This document shows positions 42,079 to 52,037 of a stretch of 64,000 bases of DNA, one piece after another. Both the position numbers and the translations under genes were made by a program. Under the pieces are notes generated by a model that was not told the DNA's origin, did not search any database, and saw only the letters and a program-made list of their open reading frames with translations. The DNA is from Cystobacter ferrugineus (GTDB lineage: Bacteria > Myxococcota > Myxococcia > Myxococcales > Myxococcaceae): contig NZ_MPIN01000014.1 of NCBI RefSeq assembly GCF_001887355.1, forward strand, positions 1-64,000, given 5' to 3'. How positions within the stretch are numbered: the stretch's first letter is position 1; each line of letters begins with the position of its first letter.

Positions 42079-42747
42079 CTACAGGTGGAAGGCGACGCCG
42101 AACGTGGCATCCAGCGTGAAGCGCGCGTCGCCCCGGCCGTAGTAGCCGTAGTAGGGGCCGATGGACGGACCCATGCGCACGTTGAAGTTGATGGCGAGGT
42201 TGCGGGCCACGAAGTACTCCAGTCCGGCGCCCACCAGCAGCGGGAAGACAGGGCCGCCGCCCGCGCCGAAGAGGACGTAGAAGGGCACGTCCACGCCGAA
42301 GTTGAGCATCAGCGCGCTGCCCACCGGCAGTCCCAGCGTGAGGGACAACGGCAGGGCCAGGCCCACGTCGGTGAAGTTGTCGTAGAAGTAGAAGAGGGGC
42401 CCGGGCGCGAAGCTCAGCCCCAGGTTCACCTGCGACGTCTGCACCAGCATCAACCGCATCCAGGCCTGGAGCTTGATGCCCGGCACCACGCTGGTGACGA
42501 TGCCCTCGCGGCCGTAGTTGAAGGTGAACTTGCCGCCGATGTCGAAGCGCGACGTGGCCCCGTGCAACAGGCCCAGCGACACACCCGGCCAGCCGAGCTG
42601 GCCATTCAACACGGTGGCGCCCTGCCCCACCGTCTGCCCCGAGAGCACGGACCAGCCCTGGCCCCGGCCGTAGCCCTCCTGCGCCATGGCGGCTCCCGAC
42701 ACGAGGAGCATGCCCACCACGAAACCACTCACGATGCCGCGTTTCAC
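42079..42747 (-). CDS. Small outer-membrane beta-barrel-like protein
   Basis: This 222-residue protein starts at GTG 42747 with a clear signal peptide ending in GAAMA. The mature part alternates hydrophobic and aromatic/Gly residues in strand-like runs and ends with a terminal aromatic/hydrophobic strand (GVAFHL), as in small outer-membrane barrels. No named family was recognised. The start overlaps the phosphomutase stop by four bases (GTGA), so they are coupled. It could be a pore for nucleosides, by analogy of context with Tsx, but there is no sequence support for that. Confidence 0.6.
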   Translation of the reverse strand: MKRGIVSGFVVGMLLVSGAAMAQEGYGRGQGWSVLSGQTVGQGATVLNGQLGWPGVSLGLLHGATSRFDIGGKFTFNYGREGIVTSVVPGIKLQAWMRLMLVQTSQVNLGLSFAPGPLFYFYDNFTDVGLALPLSLTLGLPVGSALMLNFGVDVPFYVLFGAGGGPVFPLLVGAGLEYFVARNLAINFNVRMGPSIGPYYGYYGRGDARFTLDATFGVAFHL

Positions 42748-44486
42748 GCTGTGACCTCCGGCTGCCCCCGCTCGCGCGCCAGCGCGAGGAAGGCGTCGAT
42801 GAACTGTTGGAGCTGGGCCTCCGCCCGGGCGCGCGCGGCGGACACCGGCTCGCCCGGACCGGGCGTCTCCTTCAGCTCGAAGTAGTATTTGATCTTCGGC
42901 TCCGTCCCCGAGGGCCGTGCCGTCACCCGTCCCCCACCCTCCAACTCGAAGGCGAGCACGTTGGAGGGTGGCAGCTTCTCGCCCTTCTTGTAGTCCGTCA
43001 CCGCCCGCACCGTGCGCGAGCCCACGCGCGCGGGAGGCGAGGCACGCAGGCCCTCCATGATGCGCGCGATGACCTGCGCGCCCTGGGCTCCCGGGAAGGT
43101 GAAGTTGCGCTGGGCGCTCACGTAGAGGCCGAAGCGGCGCTGGATCTCCTCCAGGTAGCCGGCCACCGTCGTACCCCGCGACTCGCACCAGGCGGCCAGG
43201 TCCGCGAACACGAGCGCCGCGCCCACCCCGTCCTTGTCCCGCGTCACCGTGCCCACGCAGTAGCCGAGCGCCTCCTCGTAGCCGAAGACGAAGCGGGTGC
43301 CCTCGGCGCGCTCGCGCTCGAGAGAACGGTTGGCGATCCACTTGAAGCCGGTGAGCACCTCGTCGTACGCGGCGCCCAGCTCGCGCGCCATGTCGCCAAG
43401 CTGCGTGGAGGACACGATGGTGGTGACGACGTGCGGCGTGGCGCCGGCGGCCTGCTTCGCCCCCCGCGCGAGCACGTAGTGGCCCAGGAGCACGCCCACC
43501 TCGTTGCCGGTGAGCATGCGCAGCGCGCCGTCCTGCCCACGAATCATCACCGCGAGGCGATCCGCGTCCGGGTCATTGGCGAGCACCAGGTCCGCGTTCA
43601 CGCGCCGCGCGGTGGCGAGCGACAGATCCATGGCCCCCGGCTCCTCGGGGTTGGGAAAGCGCACGGTGGGAAAGGTGCCATCCGGCTGATGCTGCTCGGC
43701 CACCACGTGGACGTGGCGGAAGCCCGCGCGCGCCAGGGCCCGCTCCATCCACACGCCGCCCACTCCGTGCATCGCGGTGTAGACGATGCGCAGCGAGTCC
43801 GAGCCACGTCCATGCACGCGCAGCCGGAGGATGGCCTCCAGGTACTCCTCGCCGAGCGAGTCCGGCAGCGCGTTCCACAGCCCCCGGGCGCGCGCCTCGT
43901 CCACCGGGAGCAGCCGCACCTGGTTGGCGGGCTCCACGCGGGCGATCTCCGCGGCAATGCCCTTGTCGTGGGGAGGGATGATCTGCGCGCCGTTGCCCCA
44001 GTAGACCTTGAAGCCGTTGTACTCGGGCGGGTTGTGGCTCGCGGTGACCATGACGCCCGCGGCGGCGTTGAGGTGCAGGGTGGCGAAGGCGGCGAGCGGC
44101 GTGGGCACCAGCGAGGGGAAGACGTGGGCGGGAATGCCCTCGGCGGCGAGCACGCGCGCGGTGTCCTCGGCGAGCTCCGCGCTCAAGCGCCGGCCGTCGC
44201 GCCCCACCACCACGCCGCGGCGGGCGACATCCGGGACGGTGGCCTTGAGGTAGCGCGCCAGGCCCGCGGTGGTCCGGCGCACCACCGCGCGGTTCATCCG
44301 GTTGGGTCCCGCGCCCATGACGCCCCGCAGGCCCGCGGTGCCGAACTCCAGGTCGCCCGCGAACCGGTCCGCCAGGTCCGCCACGTCCCCGCGCGCGAGC
44401 ACCTCGCGCAGCTCCGCCACGGTGGCCGGGTCCGGATCCGCCCGCAGCCATGTCTCCGCCTTGTCCTTCAGCTCTGTCGCGTCCAT
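42744..44486 (-). CDS. Phosphohexo-/phosphopentomutase, PGM2-type
   Basis: This 580-residue alpha-D-phosphohexomutase has catalytic serine S150 in TASHNPPEYNG, metal loop DPDADR at 305-310, and a C-terminal phosphate loop RPSGTEPKIK. The N-terminal LEFGTAGLRGVMGAGPNRMN and the length match the PGM2/PgcA branch, whose human member PGM2 is mainly a phosphopentomutase. Given the DeoC and phosphorylase genes nearby, ribose- or deoxyribose-1-phosphate is a likely substrate, though glucose-1-phosphate cannot be excluded. ATG 44486 with AAGGAGG seven bases upstream beats the GTG two codons earlier. Confidence 0.85.
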   Translation of the reverse strand: MDATELKDKAETWLRADPDPATVAELREVLARGDVADLADRFAGDLEFGTAGLRGVMGAGPNRMNRAVVRRTTAGLARYLKATVPDVARRGVVVGRDGRRLSAELAEDTARVLAAEGIPAHVFPSLVPTPLAAFATLHLNAAAGVMVTASHNPPEYNGFKVYWGNGAQIIPPHDKGIAAEIARVEPANQVRLLPVDEARARGLWNALPDSLGEEYLEAILRLRVHGRGSDSLRIVYTAMHGVGGVWMERALARAGFRHVHVVAEQHQPDGTFPTVRFPNPEEPGAMDLSLATARRVNADLVLANDPDADRLAVMIRGQDGALRMLTGNEVGVLLGHYVLARGAKQAAGATPHVVTTIVSSTQLGDMARELGAAYDEVLTGFKWIANRSLERERAEGTRFVFGYEEALGYCVGTVTRDKDGVGAALVFADLAAWCESRGTTVAGYLEEIQRRFGLYVSAQRNFTFPGAQGAQVIARIMEGLRASPPARVGSRTVRAVTDYKKGEKLPPSNVLAFELEGGGRVTARPSGTEPKIKYYFELKETPGPGEPVSAARARAEAQLQQFIDAFLALARERGQPEVTA

Positions 44487-44575
44487 CTCCACCCCTCCTT
44501 AAGCGGTTGTCCCGTCGCCGACGTGGCCGGCCTTCTGCGTCTGTTCAGCGATGGTCAACCGGCTCCCGCCTGGTG

Positions 44576-44968
44576 TCAGGTGTAGTCGGTGAGCTTCTTG
44601 CGGGTCGGCCCGCCCTTGGGCGCGTCCTTCTGCCCCTGGCAGTTCACGCAGAACTCCACATAGGGCACGGCCTCCAGCCGGCCCAGGGGAATCTCGTCCC
44701 CACACTCCTCGCACTCGCCGAAGGAGTCCGGATCCTGGCGCAGCTTGCCCAGCGCCTTGAGCACGCGCTGCAACACGACGTCCGAGTTGCGGTTGCGGTT
44801 GGAGGCGATGGCCTGGAGCATCTCGTTGAGCGGCTGCTCGTCCTCGTCGCCCCCCACGCGCCCCTCGTCGGTGCGGTTGGGCTCGATGCGCGCGGGCGTC
44901 TTGCCCGTCAGCTCCGCGTGCAGCTCCAGCAGCTTCTGCATGAACTTCTCGCGCTGTGCGTCGGTCAC
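44576..44968 (-). CDS. TraR/DksA-family zinc-finger protein
   Basis: This 130-residue protein has an N-terminal helical region and a C4 zinc finger with C86, C89, C107 and C110, typical of DksA/TraR proteins that bind the RNA polymerase secondary channel. The DksA coiled-coil acidic tip (DxxDxA) is not clearly present. GTG 44968 follows GGGAGAGAGG. It lies between deoC and the phosphomutase gene in one operon. It may tune transcription of this operon or have a general role. Confidence 0.75.
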   Translation of the reverse strand: MTDAQREKFMQKLLELHAELTGKTPARIEPNRTDEGRVGGDEDEQPLNEMLQAIASNRNRNSDVVLQRVLKALGKLRQDPDSFGECEECGDEIPLGRLEAVPYVEFCVNCQGQKDAPKGGPTRKKLTDYT

Positions 44969-45000
44969 GGCCTCTCTCCCTTGGTGGGCCAGGTAGGGGG

Positions 45001-45834
45001 CTAGTACTTCGCGGCGGAAGACTGGCCGGAGACGATGGCCACCGAGGCCGAGGCCCCCAGCCGGTTGGCCCCTGCCTGAATCATGCGCAGGGCGTCCTCG
45101 GCCGAGCGGATGCCGCCGGAGGCCTTCACGCCCACCTGGTCGCCCACCACGCGGCGCATGAGGGCCACGTCCTCCACGGTGGCCCCCCCGGGGCCGAAGC
45201 CCGTGGACGTCTTCACGAACGCGGCGCCCGCGGCCCGGGCCAGCACGCAGGCGGCGATCTTCTCGTCGCCGGTGAGCAGCCCCGTCTCCAGGATGACCTT
45301 CACCGGGAAGGGCCGGCTGGCCTCCACCACCTGGGCGATGTCCTGGAGCACGAGCGCGTAGTCGCGCGACTTGAGCGCGCCCACGTTGAGCACCATGTCG
45401 ATTTCCCGGGCCCCCTCGCGCACGGCCTCGCGCGCCTCGTGGGCCTTGGCGCTCGTGAGCGCCGCGCCCAGCGGAAAGCCCACCACGGCGATGGGCACGC
45501 TGGAGGAGCCCGCCAGGATGCCCGCCACCGTGGCCACGTGGCTCGAGTTCACGCACACCGTGGCGAAGCCATGACGCACCGCCTCGTGGGCCACGCGCGT
45601 GATGTCGTCGCGCGTGGCCTCCGGCTTGAGCAGCGTGTGGTCGATGAACGGGGCCAGGTCCGCGGGGCCCTTGACCGTACCGGGGGGCACGGGCGCGCTA
45701 CCCACGACGCGGGGCGTGCTGGCGGACGCGGGGGACGAGGGCGGAGCGTTGCCCGCCGGAACACCAGGCGAGCTCTTGCGGAAGAAGTCGGCGAGCTCCT
45801 CGACGACGCGCTGGATGTGCTGGGCCTCGGTCAT
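45001..45834 (-). CDS. deoC: Deoxyribose-phosphate aldolase with N-terminal extension
   Basis: This 277-residue protein has a Pro/Ser/Ala-rich extension of about 55 residues before the TIM-barrel core. Catalytic residues are visible: Schiff-base K208 in FVKTSTGF, D146 in EIDMVLNVG and K237 in GVKASGG. It splits 2-deoxyribose-5-phosphate into acetaldehyde and glyceraldehyde-3-phosphate. It heads the operon with the DksA-like, phosphomutase and outer-membrane genes. ATG 45834 has a following [11 protein letters not shown] helix; the extension is not usual for DeoC and may mediate an interaction. Confidence 0.85.
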
Positions 45835-45903: not shown

Positions 45904-47061
45904 ATGGCATTCGCGCGGCACCTCTTCGCATTGATCCTCCTGCTCGCCGCCTGCTCGGGCCGGGCCGCCCCCCTCAAACCCCTCTCCGTCTACTTCTTCG
46001 ACGTGGGCCAGGGGGACGCGGCGCTCATCGTCTCGCCCAATGGGAAGACGGTGCTCATCGACGCGGGCCCCCCCGAGGCCGATGAGCGGCTGGTGCCCCG
46101 CGTGCGCGAGCTCGTCCAGGGGCCGTTGGATCTCGTCATCCTCACCCACCCCCACCTGGACCACCTGGGCGGCATGGCGCGGGTCATCCAGACGGTGGGG
46201 GCCAAGGTCTTCATGGATCCGGGCTTCAACCACCCGAGCGAGGCCTACCTCAAGCTGCTGAAGGTGGTGGGCAAGAACGTGGAAAAACTGAGGACGCCCA
46301 TTCCCAATCTGGACAACCCGGAGGCGCCGCTGACCATCAATCTGGGCGAGGGCGCGTCGCTCAGCATCTTCTGGCCGCGCGTGCCCCAGCAGCCATTCCT
46401 GAAGGACACCCGCTCGGACGCCAACTCCAACTCCATCGTCGCCCGGTTGAACCATGGCGCCACGTCGTTCCTCTTCACGGGGGACGCCGAGCCGGAGACC
46501 GAGACGGCCCTGCTGGCCAGGCCGGTGGACCTGCGCGCCACGGTCCTGAAGGTGGCGCACCACGGAGGCCGCTACTCCTCCACCGCGCCCTTCCTCGCGG
46601 CGGTGCGGCCCCAGGCGGCCATCATCTCCTGCGGCGCGGGCAATGAGTATGGGCACCCGACCGCGGAGGCCCTCCAGCGCCTCGGGGCCCAAGGGGCACG
46701 CGTACTGCGCACGGACCGCGACGGCGAGGTGCTCGCGGTGAGCGACGGCGACCGGGTGACCTTCACGACCCGTAAGGGTAGCGCCCCACCCCTCGTCATC
46801 TCCGGGGGACCGGCGGGCCCCTCCGCCCCCCTCCCCGTGCCCGTGGACGTCTCCCCGCGCGAGGGCCCCTCGAAGACGGAGCTCGCGGCGCCCCCCCCCA
46901 CCGCGGGCCCGACGCGCTACGTGGGCCTCAAGGGCAGCAAGGTCTTCCACCGCGAGGACTGCGCCACCCTGCGGCGATCGAAAACGCAGGGGCGCACGGT
47001 ATACACGGATCGCGACTCCGCCCTGCGCGAGCGCCGCCCCTCCGAGGATTGCAAGCCATGA
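45904..47061 (+). CDS. Exported ComEC-type metallo-beta-lactamase lipoprotein 1
   Basis: This 385-residue protein has lipobox LAAC (Cys17) and a metallo-beta-lactamase fold of the ComEC/Rec2 branch. It shows DVGQGDA, metal motif HPHLDH (H82, H84, D86, H87), TGDAE and AHHGG. The C-terminal 50 residues form a small Cys/His motif (VFHREDC ... PSEDC) like the Ada-type tail attached to exported nucleases. ComEC metallo-beta-lactamase domains are linked to DNA strand degradation during uptake, so a surface nuclease is plausible. It is divergent from deoC and overlaps the next, related gene by four bases. Confidence 0.75.
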
Positions 47062-48407
47062 GCCGCCCCGTACGGACCTTCATCACCCTGTTGGGCCTGT
47101 GGCTCCTCGGAGCCTGCGAGAAACCCCCCGCGCCACCCGCCCCCGCGGCCAAGGCGGCCCAGGCCTCCCCGTTGCGCTACTTCGGCCGGCCGGCCGACGG
47201 AAAGCTCCACGTCTACTTCCTCGACGTGGATCAGGGAGACGCCACGCTCATCGTCTCGCCCACCGGGCGCACGGTGCTCGTCGACGCCGGCCCGCCCTCC
47301 GCGGGGGCCCACCTGGCCAACCGGCTGCCCGAGCTGCTCACCGGAAAGCTGGACCTGGTCATCCTCACCCACCCCCACGTGGACCACTACGGGGGACTGT
47401 CGGCGGCCCTGGGCGCGGTGGGCGCACAGCGCCTGCTCGAGCCGCAACTGCCGGGCACGCCCGCGGACTACGACGCGCTGCTGGGCGCGATCGGCACCAG
47501 CGGCATGGAGGTGTTCTCCCCGGCGCCCCCGGCCAACTCCGAGCCGCTGCGCCTGCCCCTGGGCGGTGGCGCGGAGCTGACCGTGCTCTGGCCGCGCGCG
47601 CCCACCGAGAAGCTGTTGACCGGAGACAATCCCCAGGAGCTCAACTCCATCGTCCTGCGGCTCACCTACCAGGACACCAGCGTGCTGCTGCCGGGTGACG
47701 CCCTGGAGAAGACGGAGCACTTCCTGCTCGCCCGCGGGGCGCCGCTCCAATCCACGTTGCTCAAGGTGGGAGCCCATGGCGCCGCCACGGCCAGCAGTCC
47801 CGTGTTCCTCGACGCGGTCCGGCCCCGGGCCGCCCTGGTGTCCACCGGCGCGGGCAGCCCGGAGCTCGCTCCGTCCCGGAACGTGCTCGGGCGCCTGGAG
47901 GCGATGAAGGCGCGCGTCTTCCGCACCGACCGGGATGGCGAGGTGCACGCCGTGAGCGACGGTCAGCGCTTCACCCTCACCCCCCAGCGGCACTCCGCGG
48001 GCAGCGGGCCGGGGGAGTCCGAGAGCTTCGAGGGGAAGACGGACGTGGCCTTGGCGGAGACGGATGATGCCGGCACGCCCGCCAAGGACGCGGGAACGGC
48101 GCCTCCGGGCAGGTCCGAGCTGGCGGCCGCGCCCGGAGCACAGACCCGCGGAGGCCCGGCGAGCAGCCAGGGTGTGGACATCGAGCTGGACAAGGCCCCC
48201 GCGCCCAAGCCGGTCCGGGAGGAGCGTGCCCCGCCTCCGGCCAACGGCAAGACGCGCTACGTCGCCAGCCGCAAGAGCGATGTCTTCCACCTGCCGGACT
48301 GCCCCGTCGTCAAACGCATCAAGGACGAGAACCTGATCACCTTCACCACCCGCGAGCAGGCGGCCGACGGCAACACCCGGCGGCCCGCCAAGGACTGCCA
48401 CCCATGA
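47058..48407 (+). CDS. Exported ComEC-type metallo-beta-lactamase lipoprotein 2
   Basis: This 449-residue paralogue of the previous protein has lipobox LGAC (Cys20), DVDQGDA, HPHVDH and PGDAL. The later histidine pair AHHG is changed to GAHG, so one candidate metal ligand is lost. A linker of about 90 residues, Ala/Gly/Asp-rich, separates the fold from the same Cys/His tail (VFHLPDC ... PAKDC). The tandem pair arose by duplication with divergence; this copy may be weaker, or act on another substrate. The start overlaps the previous stop (ATGA). Confidence 0.7.
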
Positions 48408-48664
48408 AGCGACGAGTACCCCCCAAGTCCAGGGTCACCGTGGATCGCATCGAGGAGGACGTGGCCGTGCTCGAGGTGGACGGACGCGAGGTACTCCGTG
48501 CGCTCGCGGAGCTTCCCCCCGGTGTGCGCGAGGGCGACGTGCTGGACCTGGAGACGATGACGGTGGACACCGCCGCCACCGAGCGCCTGCGCGACGAGGT
48601 GCGCCAGGCCCGGGAGCGCGCCATGAAGAAGAAGGCGGCCCCTCCCGGGGACTTCGACCTGTAG
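48404..48664 (+). CDS. DUF3006 family small protein
   Basis: This 86-residue protein has a strand-rich first half (VTVDRIEEDVAVLEVDGREV) and a basic helical C-terminus. This is the DUF3006 pattern, which commonly sits next to ComEC-type metallo-beta-lactamase genes. It has no signal peptide. Its start overlaps the previous stop by four bases, closing a three-gene unit. Function unknown; a regulatory or assembly role is plausible from conserved linkage. Confidence 0.75.
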   Translation: MKRRVPPKSRVTVDRIEEDVAVLEVDGREVLRALAELPPGVREGDVLDLETMTVDTAATERLRDEVRQARERAMKKKAAPPGDFDL

Positions 48665-48667
48665 GCC

Positions 48668-50401
48668 CTAGCCGGACCTCGAGAGCACGAGCCGGATTTC
48701 CACCTCGACGTCCGCCCCCGAGAACGGGGGGAACACCATGCGCTGGGCGCGCTCGATGAAGCACTCGGCCGAGGGCGAGCTGCCGATATCGGGGCGATCC
48801 ATGGCCACCCTCGTCACCTCGCCCGAGTGGGTCACCGTGGTGGTGAGCAGCAGCTTGCCATTGCGCAGCCGGGGGTTCTTGCGCAGCGCCTGGGCGATGC
48901 ACGTCTTGAACGAGGCGCGTGAGCGCTCCACCACGCGCTCGATTTCCTCCTTGGGAGGACCGGACGTGGGCGCGGGCGGGGTCGGTTGGAGCGGAGCCAC
49001 CTCGATGTCGTCCGTCCCCTCGGCGGCGGGAGCGGAGGGGGTCTCGCTCCCGGCGATGGTGGTGCCCGCGTCCGTGGGCGCCTCGCCCGGAGCCTGGGCG
49101 GTGCCTTCCGGCTCCGTGGGCGCCGGAGCCGGCTCATCCCCCGCGGACGGCTCGGCGGCGGGTGTCTCCGCGGCGGGCGCCTCGGCCGTGGGAGTCTCCG
49201 CGGCAGGCGCCTCGGCGGCGGGTACCTCGGCCTGCGGCTCCGGAGCGGGAGGTGGTGCGGGAGGCTGGCTCGGCTGGCCCATCAAGACGTTGCGCAGCTC
49301 CTCGAGCCCCTCGGGGGTGAAGACGGACACGGTCTGCGGCACCGCGTTGCCCTCGGCGTCCACGCGGTAGACGCGCAGCGGCACCACCTGCAGCTCGGTG
49401 AGGGCGATCACCGCCCCCACGGAGAGCAACACCAGCAGCAGCAGGACGAGCACCACCTTCGCGCCCACACCGCGTCCCCCGGCCCGCTTCGCCTGCGCCT
49501 TCTTCTTCTCGGGCTTGCTCGGGGGCGGGGGCTCGTCCTCCAGCACCGGGTTGACCGGGGTGTGCTCGTCATCGACCCCGGCGAAGCCCCCGCGCGCGTC
49601 GTAGCCACCACCGCGCGGCTGCTCGGAAGCGGGAAGGTCCAGGTCGGAAAACAGCTCCCCGAGGGGCGCGGCGGCGGCCTGGGCATCGGCGACGGCCATG
49701 GGTCCGGTGTCGTCGGCCTCCGGCTCCCACGGCGTGGAGTGCTGGGCACGGGGTGAGGGAGCGGGAGCCGGCTCGGGCTCGGGCTCGGGTTCGGGCTCGG
49801 TGCGCCAGCTCGTCTGCGAGTCGGGAGGCGGCTCGGGCTGCCACGAGGTGGAGGAGCGCGCCACGGCGGGCTCGGGCGGCGGAATGGGCTCGGAGGGGGG
49901 CGGCGGATCCTCGGCCAGGAAGAGGCCCTCGAGCGCGGAGATGTCCTGGCCCCGCTTCCAGTCCGCCATGCCCTGCTGCCAGAAGTAGCTCCGGGCGGTG
50001 ACGGCGCCTTGCGCCACGAGCTCGCGCAGGGCCCCATCCTCCAGCGGCCCCTCCTGCTTGCCCTTGACCATCACGAACCAGGGCGCGGCGGCATCGCCCA
50101 CCGGCATGGCGCGAGTGGGCTCGTCCTCCCAGGACGTCGCTGACACGGCCTGGGCCTGGGCCTGGGCCGCTTCTTCCTCGGCGAGCGTGCGGTCCTGCTC
50201 ACGCAGCCGCTCCACGTCCGCCAGCGACACGACGCGCGTGCTTTCCTCCATCTCGGCGGGAGGGCCCTCCACCGAGATGACGTTCTGGCAGTTCTTGCAC
50301 CGCACCTTGACGGTCTTGCCGCGAACCTTGTCGTCCGCAATGGAGTACCGCCGCTGACAATTGTTACAAGAGAAGTTCAAAGGGGTTGTCCGCGCACGCA
50401 C
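48668..50401 (-). CDS. GltJ/AgmX-like protein (zinc ribbon, GYF, membrane helix, TonB-type C-terminus)
   Basis: This 577-residue protein has an N-terminal zinc ribbon (C12, C15, C35, C38), an acidic/Gln-rich linker and a GYF_2-like domain (about 107-165, PWFVMVKGKQEGPL). Pro/Glu-rich repeats follow, then one membrane helix (about 313-335), an Ala/Pro/Glu-rich periplasmic spacer, and a TonB-like C-terminal domain (about 480-577). This is the layout of GltJ (AgmX) of the gliding motility machine. No glt genes are nearby, so it may be a paralogue. Start is GTG 50401; TTG 50380 would also match the family. Confidence 0.75.
   Translation of the reverse strand: MRARTTPLNFSCNNCQRRYSIADDKVRGKTVKVRCKNCQNVISVEGPPAEMEESTRVVSLADVERLREQDRTLAEEEAAQAQAQAVSATSWEDEPTRAMPVGDAAAPWFVMVKGKQEGPLEDGALRELVAQGAVTARSYFWQQGMADWKRGQDISALEGLFLAEDPPPPSEPIPPPEPAVARSSTSWQPEPPPDSQTSWRTEPEPEPEPEPAPAPSPRAQHSTPWEPEADDTGPMAVADAQAAAAPLGELFSDLDLPASEQPRGGGYDARGGFAGVDDEHTPVNPVLEDEPPPPSKPEKKKAQAKRAGGRGVGAKVVLVLLLLVLLSVGAVIALTELQVVPLRVYRVDAEGNAVPQTVSVFTPEGLEELRNVLMGQPSQPPAPPPAPEPQAEVPAAEAPAAETPTAEAPAAETPAAEPSAGDEPAPAPTEPEGTAQAPGEAPTDAGTTIAGSETPSAPAAEGTDDIEVAPLQPTPPAPTSGPPKEEIERVVERSRASFKTCIAQALRKNPRLRNGKLLLTTTVTHSGEVTRVAMDRPDIGSSPSAECFIERAQRMVFPPFSGADVEVEIRLVLSRSG
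49140..49250 (-). repeat. Low-complexity tandem repeats in the GltJ-like gene
   Basis: Near-identical short units encode repeated Ala-Ala-Glu-Thr/Ala-Pro segments in the periplasmic spacer. A second short tandem tract (GGCTCG-like hexamers, about 49768-49800) encodes Glu-Pro repeats in the cytosolic linker. Such tracts can change length by slippage. Confidence 0.6.
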
Positions 50402-50526
50402 ACTTGGGCGAGCGTGGGGAATGCTAACCCCACGGCGGTGGAGTGCAAACCACCGGGTTGACTCCGCCTGTCAGCCCAACTAAGAGCCGCCTCCCCTACC
50501 CTCTTGACACAGATAGAAGGTGGCGC

Positions 50527-50814
50527 ATGCCCGCGAAGGATCTCGGGACCAAGCACGTCTGCTTCAAATGCAGCACGAAGTTCTACGACATGAAGAAGCC
50601 GGATCCCCTGTGCCCGAAGTGCGGCGCGGATCAGCGTGAGAGCCCCGCCCTCAAGGCTCCCGCCGAGGGGGGACGCAGGGGCCGGCTGTCCGCGGCGCCC
50701 AAGATCATCGAGCCCGCCGAGCCCGAGGAAGCCGAGATCGGCGACGAGGAGGAGGTGGCGGACTTCGAGGACGAGGACGCCGAGAGTCCGGCGGAGGAGG
50801 ACGACGACATCTGA
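50527..50814 (+). CDS. FYDLN-acid domain protein (TIGR02300)
   Basis: This 95-residue protein has a small N-terminal zinc ribbon with Cys at 12, 15, 29 and 32 around KFYDM, the FYDLN signature, followed by a strongly acidic C-terminal half. The TIGR02300 family has no known function and is found in proteobacteria. ATG 50527 follows GAAGG and is divergent from the GltJ-like gene, with a 125-base gap. A hairpin follows the stop. Confidence 0.8.
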   Translation: MPAKDLGTKHVCFKCSTKFYDMKKPDPLCPKCGADQRESPALKAPAEGGRRGRLSAAPKIIEPAEPEEAEIGDEEEVADFEDEDAESPAEEDDDI

Positions 50815-50823
50815 GCCGTACGC

Positions 50824-50857
50824 GGGGGCTCTCTCTCCGCCGAGGGGAGAGGCCCCA
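50824..50857. terminator. Hairpin between convergent FYDLN and small-protein genes
   Basis: GGGGCTCTC-type left arm (from 50825) pairs with GAGAGGCCCC (to 50856) with one mismatch in the CT-rich middle. It lies between two convergent genes and may serve both. Confidence 0.55.
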
Positions 50858-50863
50858 GCAGCC

Positions 50864-51037
50864 TCACGCCTGGTCGCGCTGCTGGGCGACGGCCATCTGG
50901 TGCAGGGTCTGGCGCAACTGCTCGTAGCGCAGCGGCCCCAGGGTCTGCACGCCCACGGGACGGCGCGGACCCTTTCCGGTGACCCGCGGCCGGCGCCTCG
51001 GTGTACGGCTGGAAGTGGGTCGCTTCTTGGGCTGCAT
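50864..51037 (-). CDS. Small basic protein, 57 residues
   Basis: An open frame from ATG 51037 to TGA 50864 encodes a basic N-terminal half (Lys/Arg/Pro/Ser rich) followed by LGPLRYEQLRQTLHQMA, a likely amphipathic helix. GGGGGAT lies 6-12 bases upstream of the start. No family was recognised. It is flanked by a shared hairpin at its 3' side. It might bind nucleic acid, but that is only composition. Larger alternative frames on this strand look like shadows. Confidence 0.45.
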   Translation of the reverse strand: MQPKKRPTSSRTPRRRPRVTGKGPRRPVGVQTLGPLRYEQLRQTLHQMAVAQQRDQA

Positions 51038-51308
51038 GGGTCATCCCCCAGATGGTTCGCCCCCCTGTAGCAGGTTTTCCATCTCCATCACAACTTTCTG
51101 ATGAGGGTGCGCCAACCTCCTCGCCTGTCCAGCGAGCTGGAGGGCGGGCGAGGCGCCTGGGCAAAGGGGGGCGCGGTGGGTACGCCTTGCCAATGAGCCC
51201 GCGCGGAGGGATGAGGAAGGGACGATTTGGGCGTTGGACCCTTCAAACCCTTGTTGGTAGAAGGTGCCGGGCCCCGGGGTAGGGCCCCCATTGTTGGAGG
51301 CAGGGAAT

Positions 51309-52037
51309 TTGCGGGAGAAACTGAAGGCTCTGGCGGAGCTGCAGAAGGTAGACCTCGAGGTCGCCTCGCTCCGGAAGGCCGCGGACGTGCATCCCCGTCA
51401 GTTGGCGGAGTTGGAGCGCGAGTTGGGCACCGCGCGCAGCGCCATCGAGGCGGAGCGCAACCGCGTGATGGACATCGAGCGGCAGAAGACGACGCTCGAG
51501 CAGAACATCACGGACGAGAAGGACAAGGTGAAGAAGTGGGAGGCGCGGCTGGCCGAGCAGCGCTCCACCCGCGAGTACTCCGCCCTCGCCCGCGAAATCG
51601 ACATCGCCAAGAAGGCCAACCAGACGATGGCCGACGAGCTCGTGGAGCTGAGCAAGACGCTCGGCGCGGCGCGCGAGGCGGTCAAGGCCAAGGAAGCCGA
51701 GTTCGCCGCCCGCCAGGAGCAGCTCTCGGCCCGCATGGCGGAGCTGCGCTCCAGGCAGAGCCAGGCCGAGGGCCAGGTGAAGGAGCTCGAGAACAAGCGC
51801 GCCACGGTGTCCTCGGGCGTGGACGCCACCCTGCTGCGCCGCTACGAGACGATCCGCAAGAAGCGCATGCCGGCGATGGTGGGCGTGGTGCTCGGGGGCA
51901 CGTGCCTGGGCTGCCGGATGAACGTGCCGCCGCAGCTCTACAACAACCTGCGCGTGTCGCTGGGCACCGACGTGTGCCCCTCCTGCAACCGCATCATCTA
52001 CGCCGTCGAGGCGCTCGAAACCCCGGCCGAGAAGTAG
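51309..52037 (+). CDS. Coiled-coil zinc-ribbon protein (CdsZ/CT398-like)
   Basis: This 242-residue protein is a long antiparallel coiled coil (about 5-185) followed by a C4 zinc ribbon with CLGC and CPSC near the end. The layout matches the zinc-ribbon CT398/CdsZ-like family found across bacteria, of uncertain function, sometimes tied to secretion or RNA. TTG 51309 with GGAGG eight bases upstream is preferred over GTG 51264 or TTG 51291. It is followed after two bases by a small gene. Confidence 0.75.
   Translation: MREKLKALAELQKVDLEVASLRKAADVHPRQLAELERELGTARSAIEAERNRVMDIERQKTTLEQNITDEKDKVKKWEARLAEQRSTREYSALAREIDIAKKANQTMADELVELSKTLGAAREAVKAKEAEFAARQEQLSARMAELRSRQSQAEGQVKELENKRATVSSGVDATLLRRYETIRKKRMPAMVGVVLGGTCLGCRMNVPPQLYNNLRVSLGTDVCPSCNRIIYAVEALETPAEK

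Follow-up and report, generated by a model that had tools for sequence, protein, structure and literature searches.

The stretch of DNA under study, referred to below as the window, comprises 64,000 nucleotides of a contig of Cystobacter ferrugineus (NZ_MPIN01000014.1). Its ORF coordinates place three overlapping genes head-to-tail on the + strand, which we designate A, B and, after the family of its product, the DUF3006 gene (Table 1). Family models assigned Lactamase_B to both A and B. The TIGR00361 ComEC_Rec2 model also matched both proteins, at 124.5 bits (A) and 95.9 bits (B), each under its cut-off of 190.05, and the DUF3006 match of the third gene was above the gathering cut-off of 32.3. 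No PF03772 Competence channel domain was found in A or B with family models at E-values up to 1, so neither qualifies as a full ComEC/Rec2 protein; a separate full ComEC with PF03772, DUF4131 and MBL domains is encoded in the same genome. A preliminary description of the window had reported tandem overlapping paralogues followed by DUF3006, with an HxHxDH motif and a Cys/His C-terminal tail in both copies. These points held in full, as the coordinates were exact, THPHxDH was present in both window proteins and each ended in FHxxxC...DCxP.

Table 1. Genes, motifs and candidate functional residues of the A/B locus, with positions in the window
Feature	Position	Strand	Details
deoC (DeoC/LacD family aldolase)	45001..45834	-	PF01791 56.5 bits; divergent from A
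Gene A, ComEC-type MBL protein	45904..47061	+	385 aa; ORF; PF00753 73.1 bits
A signal peptide region	45904..45972	+	LAAC residues 14-17 a possible lipobox, absent in most orthologues
A motif HPHLDH, residues 82-87	46147..46164	+	Metal ligands by homology; HxHxDH in 74/74 A
A D194, GD motif	46483..46485	+	Bridging metal ligand by homology; 74/74 A
A HH of AHHG, residues 219-220	46558..46563	+	First His corresponds to Moorella ComEC H725; 74/74 A
A H251 of YGHP	46654..46656	+	Kept in 73/74 A
A tail FHREDC...EDC, Ada-like, H349-C383	46948..47052	+	Tail His 70/74 A, 4 gaps
ATGA, overlap of A stop and B start	47058..47061	+	A stop within ATGA in 56/58 pairs
Gene B, MBL paralogue without catalytic residues	47058..48407	+	449 aa; ORF; PF00753 57.2 bits
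B lipobox Cys20 (LLGAC)	47115..47117	+	Lipobox pattern in 57/59 B
B motif HPHVDH, intact in window	47370..47387	+	HxHxDH in 31/59 B
B Asp of GD motif, intact in window	47697..47699	+	43/59 B
B Ala239 (GAHG), His lost	47772..47774	+	His in 0/59 B
B tail FHLPDC...KDC, H411-C447	48288..48398	+	Tail His and each Cys 57/59 B, 2 gaps
DUF3006 gene	48404..48664	+	86 aa; PF11213 54.9 bits; ATGA overlap with B

AlphaFold2 models of A and B had mean pLDDT values of 87.3 and 80.5, respectively. The best PDB fold match for both was the nuclease domain of Moorella ComEC/Rec2 (9ic4; target TM 0.86 each), which was also the best or second-best sequence match among solved structures. As judged from sequence and predicted fold, A and B are ComEC-type MBL domains. 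A shares HxHxDH, GD, KVxHHG and GHP with the Moorella domain. Both proteins differ from Moorella ComEC/Rec2 in the absence of a channel domain, the presence of their own export signal and the added Cys/His tail, and B differs additionally in the absence of catalytic residues. Pce/CbpE (1wra, 2bib), a teichoic acid phosphorylcholine esterase with choline-binding repeats, was the second-best fold match for both models, but neither A nor B had a repeat family among its listed matches. The fold matches further included INTS11, CPSF73 and RNase J structures. A further ComEC-type MBL protein of 652 aa is encoded in the same genome (contig 11, 331-2286); it combines MBL and lamin-tail domains, has a signal-peptide-like start and a sub-cut-off fibronectin III match, and retains HHG and YGHP intact.

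Conservation of the pair was assessed across the order, in which the query P0002 matched 136 of 145 genomes at E <= 1e-10, many of the matches being weak, in long frames and probably ComEC. The working set comprised 75 loci from 74 genomes, window included, with 74 A sequences (73 genomes), 59 B sequences and both genes in 58 loci. Two short or partial rows below 150 bits were left out, one in G043 and one in G124; the latter, which scored 57.8 bits and lies where its contig ends, is possibly a truncated B. A-B pairs in G097, G113 and G114 were among the matches but lie outside the counts. Corallococcus belongs to the family, G062 being identical to a Corallococcus llansteffanensis contig over the compared stretch (91/91 60-mers). 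When a B profile was run against 195 genomes of the phylum, matches above 500 bits fell only in this myxobacterial family, among the matches listed.

Six metal-ligand positions were checked, and the full complement was present in 74/74 A sequences and 0/59 B sequences. The first His of HHG was kept by every A and by no B, and the YGHP His by 73/74 A and 0/59 B. The HxHxDH motif was intact in all A sequences, whereas it was broken in 28/59 B sequences, where the single-position replacements included Lys for Asp (14 sequences) and Gln for the first His (10 sequences). The GD Asp was likewise universal in A and missing from some B sequences (present in 43/59). Residues D53, H87, K216, T270, D271 and G274 (A numbering) were kept in 59/59 B sequences, so that B retains the fold while lacking the catalytic cluster. 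The His change first noticed in the window is thus neither random nor private to one strain.

Within the window itself, A reads KVAHHGG where B reads KVGAHGA. B also lacks the YGHP His (it reads ELAP) and the Asn matching N174 of A. The replacement of AHHG by GAHG given in the preliminary description is real, but as a description of the changed metal site it was incomplete, since these two further residues are gone as well. The first HHG His of A lies 25 residues beyond the GD Asp, as do His 725 and Asp 700 of Moorella ComEC in the alignment to 9ic4. A ComEC model of 2016 has B. subtilis His693 among its zinc-binding positions (PMC5031224, available text), in agreement with the earlier suggestion that a possible metal ligand had been lost. 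The ligands inferred in a study of 2021 were three His, four Asp and one Asn, the Asn standing in place of the motif III His (PMC8579336, in excerpt); the third His of that set presumably corresponds to the first HHG His of A. The 2025 structure paper, in its accessible portion, describes the same position as having been tested as a putative DNA-binding residue (PMC12455585). According to excerpts of the last two papers, the ComEC nuclease domain is a metal-dependent DNase, and changes to its metal ligands abolish or reduce activity, about 5-fold for one Asp (PMC12455585; PMC8579336). Whether the position is taken as part of the zinc site (PMC5031224), as a ligand (PMC8579336) or as a DNA-binding position (PMC12455585), loss of the first HHG His should be harmful to catalysis on any of the three readings as excerpted. 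For the motif III Asn, the candidates are N174, present in 74/74 A and 0/59 B sequences, and N176, present in 59/59 B sequences; N174 of A may be a metal ligand.

The two proteins also differ in their N-termini. A lipobox matching the PROSITE pattern preceded the MBL domain in 57/59 B sequences compared with 3/74 A sequences, window A being one of the three. Start codons were chosen by script, and the B count rose from 52/59 to 57/59 when five overlong starts (G076-G079, G104) were re-read. A looser pattern, consisting of a hydrophobic stretch with a signal-peptidase-like end, was found in 70/74 A sequences. The lipobox Cys expected of a bacterial lipoprotein is therefore a feature of the B family and not of the A family. 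Both copies had been called lipoproteins initially; the term fits B but is weak for A, and the claim for both copies is not supported.

At the opposite end of the protein, the region from the MBL domain onwards contained two Cys and no more in 56/59 B sequences, and these were the tail Cys wherever the tail was present. The two residues would be compatible with either a disulfide or a metal knuckle. The Ada-type Zn domain PF02805 matched B at 13.6 bits, below its cut-off of 23, and A was without a match. Three of four tail ligand positions were occupied in the myxobacterial tails shown, and all four in several relatives elsewhere. In G043, the A tail was apparently in a different frame from the MBL domain, which may reflect a frameshift or an error in the assembly.

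Phylogenetic analysis separated A from B on one branch of an unrooted tree of 133 rows (support 100/98). In a tree of 75 rows that included 29 outside relatives, B formed one clade (100/100) within a family-level A+B clade (100/98), though the order of the first branches of the A+B clade was less sure (93/85). As the B clade remained nested in the A+B clade with outside relatives included, these trees place the duplication inside this myxobacterial family, as an old event. HxHxDH would have been lost five times within B if never regained, and the Fitch count was four. Over 1597 genome pairs with dS of 0.05 to 1, median NG86 omega, a rough measure at ~70% G+C, was 0.35 for A and 0.50 for B. The value for B exceeded that for A in 1445/1597 pairs, yet it reached a maximum of 0.89 and was below 1 in every counted pair; by this measure B is under purifying selection. 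Given its origin as a single clade from a duplication, this selection and the residue losses, 'conserved pseudoenzyme' is the best description of B. The locus had been described as a possible pair of one active and one modified member, and a complete A beside an altered B bears this out in outline, but 'modified' understates the state of B: with several catalytic positions lost, B is probably no longer an enzyme, even a modified one, but a pseudoenzyme.

Carriage of the two genes was largely but not strictly joint. Six family members (G042, G043, G044, G046, G047 and G092) had no B next to A, indicating that A can manage without it; the G115 contig ends shortly after A. The G088 genome, which is 78% complete, had B next to deoC, and no A was found on the contig. 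The G088 B was also without the lipobox pattern. Where both genes were present, the A stop codon fell within an ATGA in 56/58 pairs, compared with 13/56 for the stop codon of B (two further B genes were cut off), and A and B are probably co-translated. In most loci of the family, DUF3006 came after the single MBL gene or the pair.

Relatives outside the family were fetched with the patterns HPH[LA]DH[LI]G[GS] and [FL]DVGQGDA, and the best 80 of 540 were kept. The resulting set leans towards intact motifs by construction, although the HHG position lies outside both patterns. It held 79 relatives from 78 other loci, of which 59 were stand-alone proteins, 15 ComEC and five unclear. Stand-alone ComEC-type MBL domains had been considered unusual, a view that this proportion, among the best 80 of 540, contradicts, and we discarded rarity as a distinguishing feature of the locus. 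A hydrophobic N-terminal stretch preceded the domain in 56/59 of the stand-alone relatives in this best 80 of 540. Within the same selection, DUF3006 lay directly downstream in 22/59 and the tail was present in 11/59, counts that are probably too low as the profiles were built from myxobacteria. The stand-alone proteins of Bacillota, Chloroflexota, Acidobacteriota and others resemble A and B in having a single MBL domain, often beside DUF3006. They differ from B at the HHG His, which was kept by 78/79 relatives with one alignment gap and replaced in none (best 80 of 540).

The reading that we favour, and to which as a whole we give slightly better than an even chance, is that of a live exported A with a dead lipid-anchored partner B. 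One duplication in this myxobacterial family would have produced both genes. A would be exported and would belong with the ComEC nuclease domain as a binuclear-metal phosphodiesterase, DNase activity in or beyond the envelope being its likeliest function. The catalytic metal site of B would have disappeared early, and selection would have maintained B as a partner without catalysis, whether tether, DNA guide or regulator, its most likely job being to hold A and/or the DNA substrate at the membrane. Gene order, overlaps, the single origin of B and its losses, conservation of A, purifying selection, the B lipobox and the signal-peptide-like start of A can all be seen in the sequences; from these we infer that A is an active nuclease, that B is inactive, that the two form a complex and that they serve to break down DNA. 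Five of the six B-less A copies show no lipobox of their own, which argues against tethering as a general requirement, and a B tether would be redundant in the window species, where A has a possible lipobox. With HPHVDH and GD both retained, window B might still bind one metal. Only tentatively do we go further and suggest that the two are subunits of one exported nuclease, in which the dead, lipidated MBL subunit would anchor the secreted live subunit and activate or aim it.

Retention of a dead copy suggests that B either serves A or binds DNA itself. The second option would make B a pseudoenzyme acting alone, a lipid-anchored receptor or guide for DNA in uptake, biofilm or prey, with no A complex. 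The lipobox in 57/59 sequences and the retained fold and non-catalytic conserved positions would suit such a role, and in pneumococcal ComEC a DNA-guiding role has been proposed for the MBL domain, which may be dead (PMC8579336, excerpt); however, the overlap with A in 56/58 pairs suggests coupled synthesis, and we regard a solitary B as rather unlikely. It seems improbable that B is still an enzyme, working on a different substrate with an altered or mononuclear metal site. The 31 sequences with HxHxDH, window B included, and the 43 with the GD Asp speak for it, but the motif is broken in the other 28, with Lys for Asp and Gln for the first His as described above, His occurs at 219 or 251 in no B copy, and no new conserved ligand was noticed in passing. 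We consider it very improbable that B is a decaying duplicate heading for loss. Its protein sequence changes faster than that of A, as the omega comparison indicates, and it is missing beside A in the six genomes named above; against this, omega is below 1 in every counted pair, there were no internal stops among the B matches listed, and the family as a whole has conserved the lipobox, the tail and the structural residues of B.

Pairs of an active MBL nuclease and a weakly active or inactive paralogue are known from INTS11/INTS9, CPSF73/CPSF100 and RNase J1/J2, which carry beta-CASP domains and act on RNA in the cytoplasm or nucleus. A and B resemble them in joining a complete MBL protein to a degenerate paralogue, and the holding role proposed for B would parallel that of their dead subunits. 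The putative A-B complex differs in being exported and in having no beta-CASP family listed for either protein. If the two-subunit reading is true, A and B would be an extracytoplasmic, DNA-directed counterpart of these enzymes that evolved independently in myxobacteria. The pairing of live and dead MBL proteins is itself known; here the pair would be an exported one. A literature search for a bacterial MBL pseudoenzyme nuclease gave only Integrator work, and the titles and abstract openings among the matches listed for stand-alone, lipoprotein or Myxococcus ComEC contained no such pair. MBL nucleases in phage defence form part of the background (PMC12799240, in excerpt). Two published proteins were set aside: archaeal Hvo_1477, considered as a ComEC-type MBL, is a thermonuclease according to the available text of PMC3929857, and MXAN_1394, an MBL protein enriched in the vesicles of M. 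xanthus, has no tie to A or B established from the portion available of PMC4158809. Stand-alone ComEC-type MBL proteins were common in the fetched set (59/79, best 80 of 540), yet their partner DUF3006 had no mention in the literature searched. A tandem live/dead pair across a family of predatory, biofilm-forming bacteria offers a direct genetic handle on the function of these proteins, because each member can be deleted separately. The B copies additionally provide a natural series of progressive metal-site losses, with about five breakdowns of HxHxDH, if none were regained, accounting for the 28/59 broken motifs.

Examination of the flanking genes showed that deoC, which we take to encode deoxyribose-phosphate aldolase, was divergent from and adjacent to A in 49/54 A loci that had 700 or more bases of upstream sequence; G024 was scored as non-adjacent despite a deoC within its locus. 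We did not accept this neighbour as strong evidence for DNA catabolism, because further genes on both sides recur too and the block resembles old gene order. On the - strand of the window (42744-45834), deoC is accompanied by a DksA/TraR zinc-finger gene and a phosphoglucomutase/phosphomannomutase gene, and this block recurs beside A in the family. The DUF3006 gene is followed (48668-52037) by genes for GYF/zinc-ribbon, FYDLN_acid and coiled-coil zinc-ribbon proteins, the order of which partly recurs in relatives.
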